Origin: Microbacterium aerolatum
GTDB taxonomy: Bacteria > Actinomycetota > Actinomycetes > Actinomycetales > Microbacteriaceae
Assembly: GCF_007988825.1 (NCBI RefSeq)
Contig: NZ_BJUW01000003.1
Coordinates: 1-64,000 of the forward strand
Length of the DNA: 64,000 nucleotides
Direction of reading: 5' to 3'
Shown: piece by piece, positions 19,738 through 31,319 of the stretch
Layout: every line of letters begins with the position of its first letter
How positions within the stretch are numbered: position 1 is the first letter of the stretch
Translations under genes and position numbers: made by a program
The notes under the pieces: model-generated
The model's database searches: none
Told to the model about the DNA's origin: nothing
What the model saw: only the letters and a program-made list of their open reading frames with translations

Positions 19738-20724
19738 TCAGCCGGCCAGCCGCTCCGCGAGGAACGCCGCCTGCTTCTCCCACTGCACGCCGAGGCCGCC
19801 CTCGTGCTCGTTGAAGGCGTACTCGACGATGTCCGCGACACCGCCCCAGTGGTTGCGTGCGGCATACACGGTCGACGGCGGGCACACCGGATCCATGAGC
19901 GCCACGGAGAAGAGTGCGGGCGCGGTGGCACGGCGGGCGAGGCTCACACCGTCGAAGTACGACAGCGTCTGGAAGGTGCGCTCGGCGGCACCCCGGTGGA
20001 CGGAGAGGTAGCGGACGATCTCACGATAGGGATCGCGGTCTGTCAGCCCGACGGAGCGCTCGAAGTGGCACAGGAACGGAACATCGGGCATCGCGGCGAT
20101 CAGTCCGGTGGAGAGCGCGGCGGCGGCGATCGTGATCCCGCCACCCTGGCTCGTGCCGGTGACCGCCACCCGTGAGGCGTCGATCCGGTCGAGCGAGCGG
20201 ATCGCATCGATCGCGAGAACCGCGTCGGTGTACACCCGGCGGTAGTAGTACTCGTTCGGGTCGTGGATCCCGCGGGTCATGAACCCGGGGATGGCCGGTC
20301 CGGAGCCATACGGATCGGGAGTGACGCCGCCGGTTCCCCACCCGCTGCCCTGGCCGCGGGTGTCCATGAAGAAGTGCGCGTAACCGGATGCCGCCCATCC
20401 CAGCCGCTCGTGCGGCAGCCCGCGGCCGCCGCCGTACCCGTTGTACTCGACGACGGCAGGAAGAGGCTCGTCCACATCCGCAGGCAGCAGAAGCCAGCCG
20501 CCGATCGGGTCGCCACCGAAACCGCTGAAGGTGACGTCATAGACCTCGACGGACTGCAGCGGCGAGTCGATGCGACGCAGCCGGATGGGCTGGGCGAGCG
20601 CGCGGGACTCCGCGAGCGTCTGCTCCCAGAAGTCGTCGAGATCGGCGGGCTCGGCCACCTCGGGCCGGTAAGTGCGCAGCTCTTCTGCGGGCAGGTCGAA
20701 ACGCGGCATCGCGGGATCCTTCAC
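19738..20724 (-). CDS. Acetylxylan esterase / cephalosporin-C deacetylase-like (AXE1, CE7)
   Basis: 328 residues, the usual CE7 length. The N-terminal 'LDDFWEQTLAESRA' and 'VYDVTFSGFGGDPIGGWLLL' precede the CE7 'RGQGS' motif in 'MDTRGQGSGWG'. The nucleophile elbow is 'VTGTSQGGG' (GxSQG), the acid is in 'ALMDPVCPP' and the terminal His in 'YAFNEHEGG'. CE7 enzymes deacetylate xylo-oligosaccharides and other small acetyl esters, usually in the cytoplasm as hexamers; no signal peptide is present here. The substrate beyond acetyl esters is not determined. Confidence 0.92.
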   Translation of the reverse strand: MKDPAMPRFDLPAEELRTYRPEVAEPADLDDFWEQTLAESRALAQPIRLRRIDSPLQSVEVYDVTFSGFGGDPIGGWLLLPADVDEPLPAVVEYNGYGGGRGLPHERLGWAASGYAHFFMDTRGQGSGWGTGGVTPDPYGSGPAIPGFMTRGIHDPNEYYYRRVYTDAVLAIDAIRSLDRIDASRVAVTGTSQGGGITIAAAALSTGLIAAMPDVPFLCHFERSVGLTDRDPYREIVRYLSVHRGAAERTFQTLSYFDGVSLARRATAPALFSVALMDPVCPPSTVYAARNHWGGVADIVEYAFNEHEGGLGVQWEKQAAFLAERLAG

Positions 20725-22516: not shown

Positions 22517-24287
22517 GGCCGTGACGGCGACAGCACCGCCTGCGTACGATCGGGCGCTGTAACGCTGGGCATCCGCCCTGCCTGAGCGGCGCCGACGCCG
22601 GCGCCGAAAGGAGCAGTCCATGGCCATTCGAAGACGAATCGCCGCGGCGACAGCCGCATTGGCGCTCGTCATGACCGTGTTAGTCGCCGGTGCCGGTGCG
22701 AACGCGGCATCTGCAGCGACAGACGACGAGCTGCCGGTCTTCACGACGCAGGGACCGATCATCGATCGGTTCACCGATGACACCTGGAACCCGGGCAATG
22801 AGTTCATCTTCCCCTCGGTGTTCCATGCCGGTGAACATCTCGATGATCCGCTCGGCGAGTGGTACGTCTACTACGCCCCGCACGATGCGCCGGGCGGCAT
22901 AAACCTCATGTACGCCGATTCGCTGAACGGGCCATGGACGCAGTACGAGACCAATCCGCTCGTGTCGAACGTGTGGGAGGGCATCTACGACGTCTCGCAT
23001 GTCTCGGCGCCGGATGCCGTCTGGAACGAGGACACCGGCCAGGTGTTCCTGTACTTCCACGGCGAGAACACCACCGACCGCTATGCGACCTCGGCCGACG
23101 GCGTGCACTTCGACTACGGCGGGGTCGTGATGACGACCGAGCAGTTCGGTCAGAACGCCACCGAGACCTCGTACAACCGCATCTTCCCGAACCCGTTCCC
23201 CGAGAACGGATGGGAGTACGCGATGTTCTTCATGGTCAACGACACCTCGAACGTGCGCCGCATCGGGCTCGCCTACTCGCACGACATGGTCGACTGGGAG
23301 GCCCAGCCCGGTTGGGTCGTCGAGCCCACCGCGGTGGAGGGCACGAACGTGGCCGGCCCCGAGATCTGGGAGTGGAACGGCGTGCAGTACGTGCTCTACG
23401 GATCGAGCTCGGGGACGATCTTCGCGAAGCGGCTGGATGAGAATCTGCGCAGCGTGGGCGATCCGATGCCCCTGTACATCCCGAGTCCGTTCCCGCCGGA
23501 GGAGGGCCGCACCAGCTCACCGCAGATCGTCGAGGAGGACGGCGTCACCCACCTGATCTTCGAGATCGGCGGACGCAGCGGCACCACGCTCGCCCACGCC
23601 GTGCTCGACCCCGACGGAGTCCGCGATCCGCTCAACACCCGCCCGGACGATCCGATGTACGAGCAGTGCACAGCAGAGGGATCCGACGAGTTCGACGGTG
23701 AGTCGCTCGCAGACGCCTGGTCGGTCGTCCGGGACGGCGCCGATCGCATCCGCGTCGAGAACGGCGCGCTCGTGCTCTCGTCGCCGACGACGTCGATCGA
23801 CGGGGCGACGATCCCGCAGCTGCCCGTGCCGGATGGCGCGTGGGAGGTGACGACCGAGCTGGAGTATGCGCCGGCCGCGCAGTATCAGCAGGCCGGACTC
23901 GTGCTCTACCGCGACGACGCGAACAACGCCAAGCTCGTCTGGTCGTTCGCCAAGCAGGGCCAGCGGTTCGACTTCACCTGGAAGAACAACGGCAAAGAAC
24001 GATTCGACAGCTGGACATGGGAGGACAGCGTGTTCCCGCCCGCCGACATGGGCGGCACCGTGTGGCTGCGAGTGACCGGTGACGACGAGTGGATCACGGC
24101 ATCGCTCTCCACAGACGGCACGAAGTTCATCCGGATCGGGCAGCCGATCGAGACGGACGTGCTCGCACCCACCGGTGTCGGCGTGTCCGCCTTCAGGGGG
24201 GCGACCGCTGCGCCCGACATCGATGCCCGGTTCGACTGGCTCCGGTTCACCCCGAACGAGGACGAGCTGGCCGCGTGCGCAGAGGGC

Positions 24288-24407
24288 ACGGACCCCGGAA
24301 CCGACCCGGGCACGGACCCCGGAACCGACCCGGGAACCGACCCGGGAACTGATCCCGGAACGGACCCCGGAACCGACCCGGGAACGGATCCCGGAACGGA
24401 CCCGGGG
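24288..24407 (+). repeat. Ten 12-bp repeats encoding TDPG
   Basis: Ten in-frame copies of a 12-bp unit (ACxGAyCCsGGm type) encode Thr-Asp-Pro-Gly, a rigid linker between the DUF1349 domain and the C-terminal surface domain. Synonymous drift between copies shows the array is not brand-new, but its length is likely to vary between strains. Confidence 0.9.
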
Positions 24408-24554
24408 ACCTCCGGCCCGGAGGGTGCCGTGGCATCCGCCTCGGTCGCGCAGGGCGAGACGCAGACCGTCTCGGCCGGCGGGTTCGTACCCGGCGAGCGT
24501 GTCACCGGGGTGATGCGTTCCGATCCGCTTCCGCTGGGCACGCGGATCGCGGAC

Positions 24555-24648
24555 GCCGACGGCTCGGTGTCGTTCGCATGGACGATCCCTGCTGACACCG
24601 AGCCGACGGCTCGGTGTCGTTCGCATGGACGATCCCTGCTGACACCGA
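24555..24648 (+). repeat. Exact 47-bp tandem duplication causing a frameshift
   Basis: Bases 24555-24601 and 24602-24648 are identical. 47 is not a multiple of three, so the second copy is read in a different frame and the protein ends 20 bp later. Without one copy the reading frame joins '...PADTE' to 'VGTHTVTLTGAQ' and runs to the anchor. The perfect identity implies a very recent event. Confidence 0.93.
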
Positions 24649-24925
24649 AGTCGGCACCCACACGGTGACGCTGACCGGTGCGCAGTCGGGAGCGGTGACG
24701 ATCTCCTTCGAGGTGACCGGCGCAGCGGTGAGCGGTGGCGACGCGAGTCTCGCGTCCACCGGTGCCGACTCCATGCCTGCCCTGTCGCTCGGCGCGCTAC
24801 TGCTCCTGCTCGGTCTCGGGGTGGCGCTGGTGGCACGTCGCCGCAGAGTCTGACCCCGAACCCGGCCGTGACGTGATGCGATGCGGATCGCCCACGCCAC
24901 GGCCGGGTGGTCATAGCCTTGGGTC

Positions 24926-25750
24926 ATGTCACATCTTGTGAGCGCGAACGAGCTGGCAGAACTGATCCGTGCGGGAGGCGTGCGCACCCTCGACGTGCGC
25001 TGGAAGCTGGGCCGTACGGATGGCCAGGACCAATATCTCGCCGGTCACGTCCCTGGTGCGGTGTTCGTCGATCTGAAGGACGAATTGTCCCGGCACGGCC
25101 GGCCGGACGAGGGACGGCATCCCCTCCCGTCGACCGAGCAGGTCCAGAACGCCGCCCGCCGGTGGGGAATCGACGACGGCGACACGGTCGTCGCCTACGA
25201 TGACGCCGGCGGAGGGCCGGCCGCGCGCGCCTGGTGGCTGCTGCGGAAGGGCGGCGTCGACGTGCGCGTGCTGGACGGCGGATGGGCGGCCTGGCAGGCA
25301 GCGGGCGGCGACATCGAGAGCGGATCCGTCGAATACACCGCGGGCACGGTGACCCTCGACGACATCTCGGCCGACAGCCTCACGATCGACGACGCCGCGG
25401 CCTTCCCCGAGCGCGGCGTGCTCATCGATGTGCGCGCCGCAGAGCGGTTCCGCGGCGAGACCGAACCCATCGATCCGATCGCCGGGCACATCCCCGGGGC
25501 CGTGAACCTTCCCGACACCGTGCACGTCGCCGAGGACGGAATGCTGCGCGACCTTGACGAGATCCGCGCCGCATTCGCCGAAGCGGGCGTGACCGAAAGC
25601 ACTCCGGTCGCCGCGTACTGCGGCTCCGGAGTCACGGCGGCCCACACGGCACTCATCCTCGCCGAGGCCGGGATCGACGCGAAGCTGTTCCACGGGTCAT
25701 GGAGCCAGTGGTCGAACTCCCCCGACCGCCCGATCGCGACGGGGGAGTAG
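24926..25750 (+). CDS. Sulfurtransferase (thiosulfate / 3-mercaptopyruvate, two rhodanese domains)
   Basis: 274 residues with two rhodanese domains: an inactive N-terminal one (~1-125; 'LDVRWKLGRTDGQDQYLAGH', 'VVAYDDAGG') and a catalytic C-terminal one (~150-270; 'VLIDVRAAERFRGETEPIDP'). The active loop 'YCGSGVTA' holds the persulfide Cys; CGSGVT is the 3-mercaptopyruvate sulfurtransferase form. It moves sulfane sulfur to thiols or cyanide. TAGCCT at 24914-24919 lies 6 nt before the ATG, suggesting a leaderless mRNA. It sits between LacI-regulated genes but carries no copy of their operator. Confidence 0.92.
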   Translation: MSHLVSANELAELIRAGGVRTLDVRWKLGRTDGQDQYLAGHVPGAVFVDLKDELSRHGRPDEGRHPLPSTEQVQNAARRWGIDDGDTVVAYDDAGGGPAARAWWLLRKGGVDVRVLDGGWAAWQAAGGDIESGSVEYTAGTVTLDDISADSLTIDDAAAFPERGVLIDVRAAERFRGETEPIDPIAGHIPGAVNLPDTVHVAEDGMLRDLDEIRAAFAEAGVTESTPVAAYCGSGVTAAHTALILAEAGIDAKLFHGSWSQWSNSPDRPIATGE

Positions 25751-25762
25751 CGACAGCTCCGC

Positions 25763-26698
25763 TTACCCCTTCAGCCCGGAGTGCGCGAGCCCCTGCACGA
25801 ACTGCTTCTGCGCGAACAGGAAGACCAGCAGCACGGGCACCACGGTGAGCGTGGTCGCCGCGAGCTGCACGTTCCACATCGGGCCGCCGTAGGCGTCCAC
25901 GTACTGGGTCAGCGCTTGCGGCAGCGTGAACATGTCCTTGCTGGAGAGGTACACGATCGGCTCGAGGTACAGGTTCCACGACTTCAGGAACGTGAAGATC
26001 GCCACAGCCGCCAGCGCAGGCCGGGACAGCGGGAACGCGATCCGCCAGAAGATGCCCCATCGTCCGAGGCCGTCCATGCGTCCCGCCTCCTCCAGCTCGG
26101 TGGGGAGACCGAGGAAGAACTGCCGCATGATGAAGATCGACAGCACCGCAGGGGCTCCGAAGATCGGGATGACGATGAGCGGCCAGTGGGTGTTGATCAG
26201 TCCCATGCCGTTCACCAGACGGAACAGTGGCACGATCGTCACCTCGCTGGGCACGAGCAGTCCGACCAGCACGATCAGGAAGAGCGCGTTCGCGCCGGGG
26301 AAGCGGATCCGCGCGAACGCGTAACCGGCCATCGCCGCGACCAGCAGCGTCCCGACCGTGACGATGACCGCGATGTAGAGGCTGTTCCAGTACTGCTGCG
26401 CGAACGGCTGCAGCCGGAAGACCGCCCCGTACGCATCGAAGCTCGGATTCTCCGGCCAGAGCGTCGGCACCTTCCGCAGGATCTCGCTCATCGGCTTCAG
26501 GCTGGAGGTCGCCATCCACCAGGTGGGGAGGATGAACGGGATGCTGATCACCGCGAGCAGCACGATCAGGGCGACCGAGGTCCACCGGCGCTTCGTCCGG
26601 GAGGAACCTGCCGGAACGCGGCGAGGACGGTGTGCCGATTCGGTGACGACGGCGGTGGTGTCCAGATCGTCGGGGGCCGTCGGGGCATCAGTTCTCAT
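25763..26698 (-). CDS. Carbohydrate ABC transporter permease (MalG type)
   Basis: 311 residues with six membrane segments. The ABC-permease EAA loop is 'EEAGRMDGLGRWGIFWRIAF' followed by 'PLSRPALAAVAIF', and the C-terminus 'AQKQFVQGLAHSGLKG' is the typical MalG-like ending. The N-terminal ~35 residues are charged and cytoplasmic. It overlaps the MalF-type gene by 11 nt and is the last gene of the leftward lacI operon. It forms one half of the import channel; no ATPase gene is present locally. Confidence 0.93.
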   Translation of the reverse strand: MRTDAPTAPDDLDTTAVVTESAHRPRRVPAGSSRTKRRWTSVALIVLLAVISIPFILPTWWMATSSLKPMSEILRKVPTLWPENPSFDAYGAVFRLQPFAQQYWNSLYIAVIVTVGTLLVAAMAGYAFARIRFPGANALFLIVLVGLLVPSEVTIVPLFRLVNGMGLINTHWPLIVIPIFGAPAVLSIFIMRQFFLGLPTELEEAGRMDGLGRWGIFWRIAFPLSRPALAAVAIFTFLKSWNLYLEPIVYLSSKDMFTLPQALTQYVDAYGGPMWNVQLAATTLTVVPVLLVFLFAQKQFVQGLAHSGLKG

Positions 26699-27662
26699 GG
26701 AACACCCACCTCTTTCGCGTCTGCCATTGGATGAGGGTGAGGATCAGGACGATGACGAACAGCAGCACCGAGACGCCGCTGGCGTACCCGAAGTCGTTGA
26801 ACCGGAACGCCTGCTGATACAGGTAGTACACGAGCACCGTCGTCGAGTTGCCGGGGCCGCCGCCGGTGAGCACGGCGATCTGGGCGAACACCTCGAGGGA
26901 ACCGACGATGGTCAGGATCGACACGAGCAGGATGGTCGGACTGATCATCGGGAGCGTGATCGACCGGAACCGGCGCCATGCGCCGGCGCCGTCGATGCGT
27001 GCGGCCTCCATGATCTCCTCCGGCACGCCCTGGAGCGCCGCCAGGAAGAGGATCATGTTCATGCCGACGTTCTTGAACACCTGGACGATGATCACCGAGA
27101 GCATCGCGGTGAAGTCCTGACGCAGCCAGTTCGGGCCGTCGATGCCGATCAGCGAAAGGAAGCCGTTGATGCCGCCGTCCGCCTGCAGCAGGAAGCTCCA
27201 GACGATCGTCCACGCGACCAGCGACACCACGACCGGCGAGAAGAAGAAGGTGCGGAAGGTCGTCGTCCCCGGCAGCTTCTGATTCAGCATCACTGCGAGG
27301 AACAGCGCCAGGGCGATGTTCACAACGACCAGCCCGATCGAGAACCACAGGCTCGCGAGCAGCGAGTCGTGCAGACCCTGGTCCGACAGCATCCGCTCGT
27401 AATTGTCGGTGCCCGAGAACACGAAGGTGTTCGCCAGCACATTCCAATCGTGCAGCGAGAACCAGGACACGGCGACCAGCGGCGCGATGACGAACGCAAG
27501 CGCCCCGAGCACGGCCGGGGCGACCATCGTGTAGCCGACCACCCAGTCGCGCCGTGCGAGGGCGGAGCGACGCGGGCGACCAGCCGCGGAGCGGCGAGGA
27601 CGGTCCGGCTGTCCCCTCCGCTCCGCGGTATCGGCCGTCGACCTGACGGCGGTGGAGGTCAT
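26688..27662 (-). CDS. Carbohydrate ABC transporter permease (MalF type)
   Basis: 324 residues. The N-terminal ~35 residues are a basic cytoplasmic stretch ('RRSAAGRPRRSALARRDW'), then six membrane segments. The EAA loop reads 'MEAARIDGAGAWRRFRSITL'. 'GGPGNSTTVLVYYLYQQAF' is typical of sugar permeases that pair with MalG-type partners. Its start is 6 nt after the solute-binding-protein stop. The substrate is probably an oligosaccharide or glycoside, by context with the GH43-like protein and the FAD oxidoreductase. Confidence 0.92.
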   Translation of the reverse strand: MTSTAVRSTADTAERRGQPDRPRRSAAGRPRRSALARRDWVVGYTMVAPAVLGALAFVIAPLVAVSWFSLHDWNVLANTFVFSGTDNYERMLSDQGLHDSLLASLWFSIGLVVVNIALALFLAVMLNQKLPGTTTFRTFFFSPVVVSLVAWTIVWSFLLQADGGINGFLSLIGIDGPNWLRQDFTAMLSVIIVQVFKNVGMNMILFLAALQGVPEEIMEAARIDGAGAWRRFRSITLPMISPTILLVSILTIVGSLEVFAQIAVLTGGGPGNSTTVLVYYLYQQAFRFNDFGYASGVSVLLFVIVLILTLIQWQTRKRWVFHEN

Positions 27663-27668
27663 GCGCTC

Positions 27669-28550
27669 TCAGCCCTCCAGCAGCGGGGTGATCGTGGCGC
27701 AGGTGTCCTCGAGCACGGCCTCGACGTCGGCGTCAGCGGTCCACAGCGCGTCGAGCTCGGCGCGGACGACATCTTGCAGCTTCGCGAAGTTCGCGTGCGT
27801 CGGCTTGGTGACGGCATCCTGGATGCCTTCGACGACCACAGCCTGGAGCTGCTCCTCGCTGAGCTTCGGGTTGGCAGCTCCCAGCGTCTGGGCGTTCAGC
27901 AGCGACTCGCGCGGCGGCGGGAAGTACGTCGCGAGCTTCTCGGCGTTCTCCGGATTGGTGAAGTAGGCCAGGAAGTCCGCGGCGATGGTGGGATGCTCCG
28001 CGTTCGCGAACACGCCGATGCCGGCCTGCCCGATCACGTTCTGCTTGCCCTCGGGCCCGGCGGGAAGCGGGACGATGTCCCAGGCGAACGAGTCGTCCAG
28101 GGCGGATGCGCGGCTGATCTGCGTGATCGTCATCGCCGACTCTCCGGCGAAGAAGTCGGCGGTCACGCCGGGGCCGGGGATCGCCTTGTCGGCGAAGACC
28201 GCGTCATGGACCCACGTCATGGCGTCGACCATGGCCGGATCCGTGAACGTGCACTGCGTGCCATCCTCGCTCCACGGGGCGGCATCCCAGCCCTCCGCGA
28301 ACGGGATCGGCTCGAACGTGACCTCGGCGACGAGATCCGGGTTCTCCGCGATGTAGGCGTCGGCGATCTCCTGGAACAGGGCCAGTTGCGTCTCGTCGGC
28401 TGTCCAGACCGCCATGCGCAGGTCGACGGGCTCGTCGGGCGTCTCGGCCTCGCCCGCGGAGCCGCTGCATCCGGCAAGGACCAGGGCGACGGCGGCGATG
28501 CCGGCACCCGCCGTCAGCGACAGGCGTCGTCGTGAGGTCTGAGGGCTCAT
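27669..28550 (-). CDS. Sugar ABC transporter solute-binding lipoprotein, apparently internally deleted
   Basis: 293 residues; family-1 sugar-binding proteins normally have about 410-450. A lipobox 'LVLAGC' at residues ~23-28 and the first lobe strand/helix ('VDLRMAVWTADETQLALFQE', 'NPDLVAEVTFEPIPFAE') are present. The sequence then jumps straight to a late segment, 'GWDAAPWSEDGTQCTFTDP', that in relatives follows ~120 further residues, including the 'GTAPDV' region and the trans-lobe hinge. The rest is normal to the C-terminus. The frame is kept, so a protein can be made, but the sugar-binding cleft should be incomplete. I infer an in-frame deletion; comparison with close relatives would settle it. 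Confidence 0.75.
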   Translation of the reverse strand: MSPQTSRRRLSLTAGAGIAAVALVLAGCSGSAGEAETPDEPVDLRMAVWTADETQLALFQEIADAYIAENPDLVAEVTFEPIPFAEGWDAAPWSEDGTQCTFTDPAMVDAMTWVHDAVFADKAIPGPGVTADFFAGESAMTITQISRASALDDSFAWDIVPLPAGPEGKQNVIGQAGIGVFANAEHPTIAADFLAYFTNPENAEKLATYFPPPRESLLNAQTLGAANPKLSEEQLQAVVVEGIQDAVTKPTHANFAKLQDVVRAELDALWTADADVEAVLEDTCATITPLLEG

Positions 28551-28603
28551 GCTTTCTCCTTCTCTGTGGTTTCTTCTGTGTGATCTCGGGTCGGGGTGCG
28601 AAG

Positions 28604-30229
28604 TCAGTAGGCGTACACGCGGCCGTCGGGCCAGTGCCGCTCGATGCCCGTGGCATCCAGTTCGGCCTGGTAGTCGGCGAGCTTCCCGGAATCGGCGTGC
28701 ACCTCGTGCGGGGTCGTCCCGCCGGCGGCGCAGTAGGCGGCCAGGTGGCCGGCGGCCTCGCCGATGTTCCACTCCACCGGGTGCAGGCGATAGCAGCCGT
28801 TGGTGATGTGCGTGGTGCCGATGTTCTTGTTGGCGGCGAGCAGGTTCACGGTGCGCTGCGGGATGAGCGCGCCCAGCGGGATCTCGAACGGCGTGGATGC
28901 CACGTCGATGTAGGTGTCTCCGCCGGTCGAGGGGTGCAGGTCGATCCGGTACATGCCGACGCCGACCGACTCCTCGTACCTGGTGGCTCCGGCGTCGCCG
29001 CGGACCGCGTACGACACGTCGTTCTCAGTGATCGTGGTGAGGGCACGGATGCGGCGCGACTCGCGGTGGTACGGGGCCTGGGCGAGACCGTCCGCAGAGC
29101 CCATCACGTCGGGCCGGAGCCGGAGCCCCGGGAAGCCGGTGCCGCCGTCGGGGCGGGGCGCCTCGGTCTGCATCCAGTACAGCATCGACAGGCTCAGTTG
29201 CCGTGCGTCCTCGTAGCGCTCGAGTTCGGTCTCGCGCGGGACGTCCAGCACGTGTTCGAGGAAGTAGTCGATGCTGGGCCAGTTCACCAGCGAGATGTCG
29301 CTCTTGTAGAAGCCGGGAGTGAACAGGTCGCGGGCGGCGATGCGCCGGAAGAACCAGAGGTTCTGGTCGCCGGCGTTCTTGGACTGATCCGCGTCGACGG
29401 CGAGGGCGTCATCGCCCGGGTTCGGGTCGAAAGCGCGGGTGTCGATCGCGAGGGTGCGCGGGTTGGGCGCCGTCCACGACAGGAGCGGGTGCCCCTGCCA
29501 CGCCGACGGGGCGTACTCGCGCCAGAAGTCGTAGCGGGCCGGGCGCTCGATCGTGTGGTCGCCTTCGATGTGCTCGACGGCGAAGCACACGCTGAGAGCC
29601 TGCACGTTGTCGGGCTGGGCGGACTCCGGTGCGCTGGGCTCTCCGGTCTCTGCCCGCGACTCGAAGCCCGTCACGTAGTCGGTGCCGGTCAGGGGCAGCA
29701 GCTCCCCGGTCTCGGTCGCGTCGAGCACGTAGGCGGCACGGACGGTGATGTCCTCCTCGCCGATCTCGGAGGCGAGAGTGACGGAGGTCACGCGCTCCTC
29801 GTTGGTCGTCGCGGCGATCGGCCGGCGGCGCCGGAGCAGCGTGATCCGCCCGGCAGAGCGGTGAGGCGCGAGCATCTCCTCCAGTACGCCCACCGCGATG
29901 CGCGGCTCGTGGCACAGCTTCGATACCCAGCCGGCGCCGGGGTTCAGGTCGACGCGGTCGCGTGCCGCGTCGATGAGCGGGTAGCGGCGGCGGTACACGT
30001 CGCGGATGCCGTCGCGCAGCGCCCGGTAGCGGGCGGTGATGCCGAACTCCTCGACCCACGGGTGCTCATCCGGCGGCACCGCCTGTGAGGTGAGCTGGCC
30101 GCCGATCCATTCGAACTCCTCGGTCAGGATCACCTTCGCTCCGCGGTCGGCGGCGGCGAGGGCGGCGGCGACGCCGCCGAGGCCCGCTCCGACGATGAGG
30201 ATGTCGGTGGTGAGGTCAGGATCGGTCAC
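28604..30229 (-). CDS. FAD-dependent oxidoreductase (FAD_oxidored / PF12831-like)
   Basis: 541 residues from a GTG at 30229, preceded by GAAGGA inside the lacI end. The dinucleotide-binding motif '[20 protein letters not shown]' starts at residue ~9, followed by 'EEFEWIGGQLTSQAVPPDEH', a signature of the PF12831 group, and a second FAD contact in 'AAYVLDATETGELLPLTGTD'. Relatives are found in glycoside-utilisation loci and are presumed to oxidise sugar derivatives. It overlaps lacI by 14 nt and precedes the solute-binding protein by 53 nt. The substrate is unknown; its presence suggests an oxidised or glycosidic sugar is the target of the operon. Confidence 0.85.
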   Translation of the reverse strand: MTDPDLTTDILIVGAGLGGVAAALAAADRGAKVILTEEFEWIGGQLTSQAVPPDEHPWVEEFGITARYRALRDGIRDVYRRRYPLIDAARDRVDLNPGAGWVSKLCHEPRIAVGVLEEMLAPHRSAGRITLLRRRRPIAATTNEERVTSVTLASEIGEEDITVRAAYVLDATETGELLPLTGTDYVTGFESRAETGEPSAPESAQPDNVQALSVCFAVEHIEGDHTIERPARYDFWREYAPSAWQGHPLLSWTAPNPRTLAIDTRAFDPNPGDDALAVDADQSKNAGDQNLWFFRRIAARDLFTPGFYKSDISLVNWPSIDYFLEHVLDVPRETELERYEDARQLSLSMLYWMQTEAPRPDGGTGFPGLRLRPDVMGSADGLAQAPYHRESRRIRALTTITENDVSYAVRGDAGATRYEESVGVGMYRIDLHPSTGGDTYIDVASTPFEIPLGALIPQRTVNLLAANKNIGTTHITNGCYRLHPVEWNIGEAAGHLAAYCAAGGTTPHEVHADSGKLADYQAELDATGIERHWPDGRVYAY

Positions 30230-31319
30230 GAATGGGTCCTTCGGTTTCGGTGCGGATGGATGCCGGAGCCGGGGCGAGCGATTCGCCGTCGGCCTCGGGA
30301 CAGTCGAGGATCTGGTGCAGGTCGGCGTCGTCCAGCGCAGTGGCGCTCGGGCCGCGGCCGCCTCCCCTCTCCCGCTCGACGATGCGGGAGAGGAGCACGA
30401 GGGCGCGCGCGCCCATCTCCTCACGGGGGACGGTGAACCCGGACCACCGGCGGGAGCCTCTGCTCTGGTGGATCGGCTGGCCAAGCAGCAGCATCGAGAT
30501 ATCCCGCGGCACGTGCAGGCCGCGTGCCTCCAGCGCCTCCGCGAGCTCGTCCGGTGCGTTGTCGGGGGCGACGAGGATGCCGGTGAGCCGGCGCTCGGCG
30601 ATCTCCTCCGCACCGACAGCCACGTCGTGTACGTCGACGAAACGCAGCGGCAGCCCATGAGCGCGCATGGCCTGGCGATAGCCCTCGACACGGTCCAGCG
30701 TCGACTGATCGGAGCCCTGGAGTCCCGCATACCCGATGCGCCGGTGACCCGCAGCGACGAGGCGTTCGACCTGGCGCGCGGTGGCTGCGACGTAGTCTGC
30801 GCCGACGTACGGGAGGACGCGTCCCTCACTGGCGCGCTTGCCGACGAACACGAACGGGTAGTTGGTGTCGAGCAGATGCTGGAGCTCGCCCTGGTCCTCG
30901 TGCTGTCCCAGCAGCAGGCATCCGTCGGCGATGCCGAGGCGCTGCCACCCGTCTCGGGCGAGCTGGCGCCGGCCGTCGACCACGCGTGCGGAGGTGAACA
31001 GCAGCATGTCGACGCCGAGCTGCTCTGCGGCGTGCTCGATGCCGACGAGGAACGCTCCGTAGAAGTCCTGGCCGCCGCGGGGGAACGTCGCTTCGTAGGT
31101 GAACACGCCGAGGATCTGATTGCGGCCGCCGGCCAGACGCTGGGCGACCGGGTTCGCGGAGTAGCCGGTGATGCGGATGGCGTCGAGGACGCGGCTGCGC
31201 GTCTCTTCCGAGATGCGCACCCCGGCGGGGGCGCTGCCGTTGAGGACGAAACTCACGGTGGACTGGCTGACGCCGGCCATCGCGGCGACATCGGCCTGCG
31301 TGAAGCGGTGACGCGGCAT
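30216..31319 (-). CDS. LacI family transcriptional regulator
   Basis: 367 residues. The LacI HTH and hinge occupy about 1-60: 'FTQADVAAMAGVSQSTVSFV' and 'YSANPVAQRLAGGRNQI'. A periplasmic-binding-like effector domain follows (~65-340), with a ~25-residue acidic/Pro-rich tail. The start at 31319 has GAGGAGG 4-10 nt upstream. The palindrome ATAATGCGCATTAT lies 92 bp upstream of its start and again before the GH43-like gene, so it is expected to repress itself, the operon behind it and the GH43-like gene. The effector is probably the imported saccharide. Confidence 0.93.
   Translation of the reverse strand: MPRHRFTQADVAAMAGVSQSTVSFVLNGSAPAGVRISEETRSRVLDAIRITGYSANPVAQRLAGGRNQILGVFTYEATFPRGGQDFYGAFLVGIEHAAEQLGVDMLLFTSARVVDGRRQLARDGWQRLGIADGCLLLGQHEDQGELQHLLDTNYPFVFVGKRASEGRVLPYVGADYVAATARQVERLVAAGHRRIGYAGLQGSDQSTLDRVEGYRQAMRAHGLPLRFVDVHDVAVGAEEIAERRLTGILVAPDNAPDELAEALEARGLHVPRDISMLLLGQPIHQSRGSRRWSGFTVPREEMGARALVLLSRIVERERGGGRGPSATALDDADLHQILDCPEADGESLAPAPASIRTETEGPIRDRS

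Follow-up and report, generated by a model that had tools for sequence, protein, structure and literature searches.

Introduction

In the pneumococcal capsule genes (the type 3 locus, cap8E, and tts), spontaneous duplications are reported to control phase variation (Waite 2001 and 2003, as cited in the excerpted text of PMC4022640). For a nine-bp insertion, the same excerpt gives an expected reversion of at most about 10^-5. In isogenic populations of Mycobacterium tuberculosis Erdman, the copy numbers of promoter tandem repeats varied at frequencies of 10^-2 to 10^-3 per chromosome, and a 57-bp tandem repeat is described at the dop promoter (excerpts of PMC12817950). Three of the Xenorhabdus lrp mutations were tandem duplications of 26 to 116 bp; in the sections of PMC6786866 that deal with them, the mutations were judged to be diverse and not phase variation, and revertants nonetheless appeared, many of which were incomplete. 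Class E sortases, for their part, recognize the motif LAXTG (excerpts of PMC5148588).

Here, we describe an exact 47-bp tandem duplication in the gene for a putative secreted enzyme of Microbacterium aerolatum. The duplication places a class E-type wall-sorting signal out of frame, and we argue that it is probably a recent and genuine replication error.

Results

The duplication truncates a putative secreted enzyme

The window that we analyzed is a 64,000-nucleotide stretch of the M. aerolatum genome (assembly GCF_007988825.1, contig NZ_BJUW01000003.1, positions 1 to 64,000). The open reading frame (ORF) list and Pfam searches identified a truncated ORF of 682 amino acids on the plus strand at positions 22620 to 24668, with its stop codon at 24666 to 24668. 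The ORF encodes, in order, a start that resembles a signal peptide when judged by eye, an N-terminal part, a GH43_C2 domain, a Thr-Asp-Pro-Gly linker, the start of an Ig-like region, and 21 out-of-frame residues. "Ig-like" is a label that we gave by eye to the stretch between the linker and the wall anchor.

The GH43_C2 concanavalin-like domain spanned residues 355 to 530 and scored 51.3 bits against a Pfam cut-off of 22.7, and DUF1349 fell barely below its own cut-off (32.1 versus 32.4 bits). The N-terminal part matched no Pfam family at an E value of 0.1. In the case of a GH43 catalytic domain, GH43_C2 was the only model above its Pfam cut-off, and a search of PDB sequences gave no clear catalytic match. 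Specifically, the PDB search matched the linker repeats (circumsporozoite protein); the other matches were weak, and the best useful one was a xylosidase with an E value of 0.056. A structure prediction for residues 1 to 545, made with four sequences, had a mean pLDDT of 39.5, and the model was too poor for use.

The linker was detected in the repeat scan as an in-frame repeat with a period of 12, 24, or 36 bp at 24284 to 24410 (plus strand), and such linkers accounted for most of the genus matches listed. The neighboring genes included an acetyl xylan esterase gene on the minus strand (19738 to 20724) and a gene for a rhodanese-like protein on the plus strand (24926 to 25750). From 25763 to 31319, the minus strand carried genes for two ABC permeases, a solute-binding protein, an FAD oxidoreductase, and a LacI-type regulator. 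A secreted enzyme that acts on polysaccharides is the natural guess for the product of the truncated ORF.

The repeat scan and a comparison of flanking bases placed the two copies of the 47-bp unit on the plus strand at 24555 to 24601 and 24602 to 24648. The copies had zero differences, and the flanking bases lengthened the match at neither side; thus, there were exactly two copies, and direct microhomology was absent at the junction. Since 47 is not divisible by three, the copy number of the unit alters the reading frame, and the frame shift puts the remaining end of the Ig-like region and the LASTG wall anchor out of frame. These results bore out the first-pass annotation, which had described an exact 47-bp duplication that shifts the frame and ends translation at 24668. 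The annotation had also given the one-copy protein a length of 728 residues, a value that agreed with the coordinates by arithmetic only.

We also examined how common such repeats were in the same genome. The scan covered the window and 20 further 20-kb stretches, together 464 kb or 14% of the genome, at periods of 10 to 300 bp. Nine other exact tandem repeats remained once multiples of a shorter period had been removed from the rows. All nine had periods of 10 to 24 bp, and no exact tandem repeat with a period above 24 bp was found in the 464 kb except for the 47-bp duplication. In 51 loci from other genomes (208,687 bases), exact tandem repeats with a period of 15 to 300 bp made up 43 rows, and every one of these periods was divisible by three. 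We gave this count no weight: the loci had been chosen for the enzyme gene or the linker, and the 43 rows include double counts (L005/L034/L042, L006/L043, L007/L044, and multiples of one period).

A class E sorting signal lies intact beyond the frame shift

Translation and profile searches indicated that the region from 24602 to 24853 (plus strand) was open in its own frame and encoded the rest of the Ig-like domain, a LASTG sorting signal (LASTGAD), a hydrophobic helix, the basic end RRRRV, and a stop codon. In its own frame, this tail passed the cut-offs of two NCBIfam anchor models, TIGR01167 (LPXTG_anchor; 23.6 versus 15.9 bits) and NF058582 (27.9 versus 27 bits), and narrowly missed that of Pfam Gram_pos_anchor (19.2 versus 20 bits). 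The tail therefore had the features of a class E sortase substrate, namely an LAXTG motif, a hydrophobic helix, and a basic end. The signal was not in frame with the secreted protein, as the frame of the ORF stops at 24668, and the earlier proposal that the duplication separates the protein from its wall anchor held up.

The genome contained one sortase match (PF04203), which was assigned to class E by NF033747 with a score of 220.8 bits against a cut-off of 160. When the same genome was searched with TIGR01167 at an E value of 0.001, only the tail of the enzyme was matched, and the tail used as a query at an E value of 0.01 found nothing beyond itself and the other repeat copy. Two in-frame LAXTG proteins, with the motifs LAQTGAD (L082; G000:C6, about 732 to 815) and LARTGGG (L083; G000:C1, about 111424 to 111522), were among looser candidates in the part of the genome covered and scored under the curated cut-off of Pfam Gram_pos_anchor. 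Because of these candidates, the class E sortase probably retains further substrates in this genome.

The out-of-frame tail had no further defect beyond the frame shift. We compared it with the tail of the relative L005, with which it shared 40 of 67 residues. Over these 67 codons, dN was 0.36 and dS was 1.03, and over the 631 codons upstream, dN was 0.12 and dS was 0.85. The dN/dS ratios were thus about 0.35 for the tail and 0.14 for the upstream part. These values indicated that purifying selection acted on the tail, less strongly than on the upstream part, for most of the time since the separation from L005. Since the tail was the less conserved part, some relaxation may predate the duplication.

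Aligned relatives carry a single copy of the unit

A protein search of 295 genomes of the genus found strong relatives in 17 other genomes (L005 to L021; E values of 2.5e-92 or better), with the match to L021 spanning residues 4 to 343 only. A search of GTDB contigs added Microbacterium murale (L035) and Microbacterium sp. MPKO10 (L036); it also gave L034, which by length and place is the L005 contig again. The resulting count of 19 distinct relatives leaves aside the partial relatives L022 to L033 and a second relative in G123 (C61:855-2732). Seven of the 19 had an in-frame LAXTG motif near the end (L005, L011, L012, L015, L019, L020, and L036), the anchor-like tail of one (L017) was out of frame, and the other 11 had no anchor.

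Five relatives (L005, L011, L012, L015, and L036) had both the Ig-like region and the anchor in frame and were aligned with the window in a between-species comparison. The unit was present as a single copy in all five, so the repeat was neither kept nor varying among them.

A DNA search of 366 genomes of the genus gave strong matches beyond the window in G123, G095, and G213, and the next match listed had an E value of 1.6e-42. The weaker matches among those listed fell mostly on the linker repeat. Some partial matches, such as those in G260 and G300, reached into the 47-bp repeat. The junction between the copies, searched with up to three mismatches, was found in two of the 366 genomes, this one and G008 (three mismatches, in a place that was not examined), and no other of the 366 was found to have it at this place; such a pattern would miss diverged duplications elsewhere.

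In a tree of residues 1 to 555 (20 rows), L036 and five others formed a clade with a support of 99/99. Within it, the window grouped with four others (95/96), L005 grouped with three (98/96), and L006, L007, and L035 grouped together (88/88). L036, which is anchored, thus branched first, followed by the window and then by L005 (anchored) beside L006, L007, and L035 (not anchored). Across the whole tree, the anchor label required four changes; the window and L017 carry this label because the anchor DNA is present. Given the positions of L036, the window, and L005, the simplest reading of the tree is that the single-copy, anchored form is ancestral in this clade and that the anchor was lost twice, once in the M. 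murale group and once in the window by frame shift.

In the M. murale group (L006, L007, and L035, the closest relatives), a Gly/Asn/His-rich repeat tail replaces the Ig-like domain and the anchor. The tails of these three proteins are built of tandem units of 36 to 48 bp that are 97 to 100% alike. By eye, the same rhodanese-like gene as in the window also lies 3' of the enzyme genes of L007 and L035.

The out-of-frame tail of L017 (G250:C1, about 1210321 to 1212455) breaks in the linker and near a WTIP motif, a motif that is also present at the site in the window. G250 is 76% complete in two contigs, which suggested uncorrected long-read indels; L017 was therefore not counted as a second case and was left out of the five-relative alignment. 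Compared with its close relative L018 (G049), L016 (G100) had a frame break at its C terminus.

The junction of the copies is a perfect palindrome

Inspection of the sequence and its predicted fold revealed an inverted repeat inside the unit (24564 to 24601, plus strand) with 8-bp arms at 24564 to 24571 and 24594 to 24601. The last base of the 3' arm is also the last base of the unit, and as a result, the junction of the two copies reads as a perfect 25-bp palindrome at 24594 to 24618, with arms of 12 bases and its center at 24606. The hairpin of a single unit was only moderately stable (z of -1.84), and 10 of 200 shuffled sequences folded equally well.

We compared the junction with simulated events, a test that was chosen after the junction had been seen and that concerns one junction. 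When tandem duplications of 20 to 100 bp were simulated in the same 464 kb, palindrome arms of at least 12 bases arose at the junction in 19 of 200,000 cases. Simulated 47-bp duplications elsewhere in the gene reached arms of 8 bases in 4 of 1,874 cases and arms of 9 bases in none of the 1,874. Among random 47-mers, 491 of 200,000 contained the inverse of their last 8 bases. The 464 kb held two palindromes with arms of at least 12 bases and no more than one loop base, the junction itself and one in L078. The latter (L078:17548; G000:C1, about 97548) has arms of 19 bases that match perfectly around a single loop base.

Discussion

We consider it probable that the duplication is a recent and real replication error that arose through a hairpin snap-back and caused the loss of anchoring. 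Simple slippage on direct microhomology was considered and set aside, as none was present at the junction. In the proposed route, the 3' end of the new strand would halt at the end of the inverted repeat during copying of the Ig-like part, fold back on the inverted arm, and copy about four bases, the ones with which the unit begins. These four added bases would then re-anneal to the identical four bases located 47 bp upstream, and onward copying would yield an exact tandem duplication. The fifth base, next to the four that re-anneal, differs, as the snap-back model requires. The frame shift deprives the protein of the last part of the Ig-like domain and of its LAXTG anchor and leaves the putative signal peptide, the other domains, and the linker untouched. 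Provided that the truncated protein is produced in active form, the enzyme would then be secreted and, rather than being linked to the wall by the class E sortase, released.

It is also conceivable, albeit unlikely, that the genome has a single copy and that the duplication is an artefact of assembly or sequencing, in which overlapping ends were joined without being merged. The assembly consists of 28 contigs, none of the other genomes compared shares the duplication, and the gene would be sound but for it, all of which fit an artefact. A general problem with the assembly was looked for in the 464 kb and was not found: exact tandem repeats with longer periods were absent elsewhere, which argues against a general tendency toward false duplications there. 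In addition, ordinary reads would be long enough to cover the 94-bp array. A joining error would also have no reason to stop precisely where an inverted repeat ends and to form a 25-bp palindrome, and the position of the palindrome thus favors a real mutational event. If the event was real, it is improbable that it was selected, that is, that release was favored and that the frame shift led independently, as a second route, to the unanchored state seen in the M. murale group. The absence of the Ig-like domain and the anchor from L006, L007, and L035, and the separation in the tree of the loss in that group from the loss in the window, would agree with selection. The case, however, is one allele in one genome, and neutral loss or adaptation to culture predicts the identical sequence.

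The first-pass annotation had proposed that the locus toggles between an anchored and a released form, with a fresh loss or an artefact as alternatives. An evolved phase variation of this kind, in which one-copy and two-copy cells alternate and the enzyme is wall bound or released, seems very unlikely to us, and the two alternatives fit our results better. A perfect repeat of a frame-shifting length in the gene for a surface protein, with the anchor frame still open, speaks for a switch, and there are precedents in the pneumococcal capsule duplications (PMC4022640, excerpts) and in the varying promoter repeats of M. tuberculosis, which is also an actinobacterium (PMC12817950, excerpts). Against these points, the single copy in all five aligned relatives, the confinement of the junction to this genome and one inexact match in G008, and the structure of the repeat, which is a two-copy duplication and not a tract of many short units, do not resemble an evolved switch. 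By eye, the inverted repeat was not preserved in the alignment with L005, and the Xenorhabdus lrp duplications were judged not to be phase variable in the excerpts of PMC6786866. We thus found no evidence of an evolved switch.

In principle, the duplication is revertible: recombination or slippage between the copies could restore the one-copy allele. Longer repeat units revert more often. Regaining the second copy would require another rare event, and the two directions would therefore be unbalanced. A hairpin-seeded hotspot, in which a copy is gained by snap-back and lost by recombination or slippage so that the anchor flips within a clone, is a remote prospect. If switching were nonetheless true, it would place anchoring under phase variation in Microbacterium; a literature search that covered titles and the beginnings of abstracts found no report of phase-variable anchoring in this genus.

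A single replication error through hairpin snap-back, if real, would be a natural example of a junction that seems to record its own mechanism, a hairpin-primed direct duplication. It would also illustrate the ease with which a wall-anchored enzyme becomes a released one, an outcome reached twice in a small clade by the simplest reading of the tree. The 682-residue product should be treated with caution as the normal form of the enzyme.

Several described systems resemble parts of this locus. The tail is like the LAXTG proteins of SrtE1 in Streptomyces coelicolor (excerpts of PMC5148588) in its LASTG motif, hydrophobic helix, and basic tail and in the presence of a class E sortase in the genome, but the Microbacterium signal is not read in the same frame as the protein upstream of it. 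Like the pneumococcal capsule duplications (excerpts of PMC4022640), the duplication is a short tandem duplication within a reading frame that abolishes a function and can, in principle, be lost again; phase variation was reported in the pneumococcal genes, whereas here there is one genome, and the effect is the loss of a wall anchor. The promoter repeats of M. tuberculosis have a similar unit length (57 bp at dop) and occur in an actinobacterium, but they are located in promoters, recur among strains, and were seen to vary in isogenic populations, unlike the Microbacterium case (excerpts of PMC12817950).

Quasipalindrome mutations, or snap-back template switches, are a known class of mutation. 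They correct one arm of an inverted repeat, whereas the product proposed here, from one junction, is a direct 47-bp duplication. The likeness lies in a breakpoint located where an inverted repeat ends and in a junction that completes a longer, perfect palindrome.
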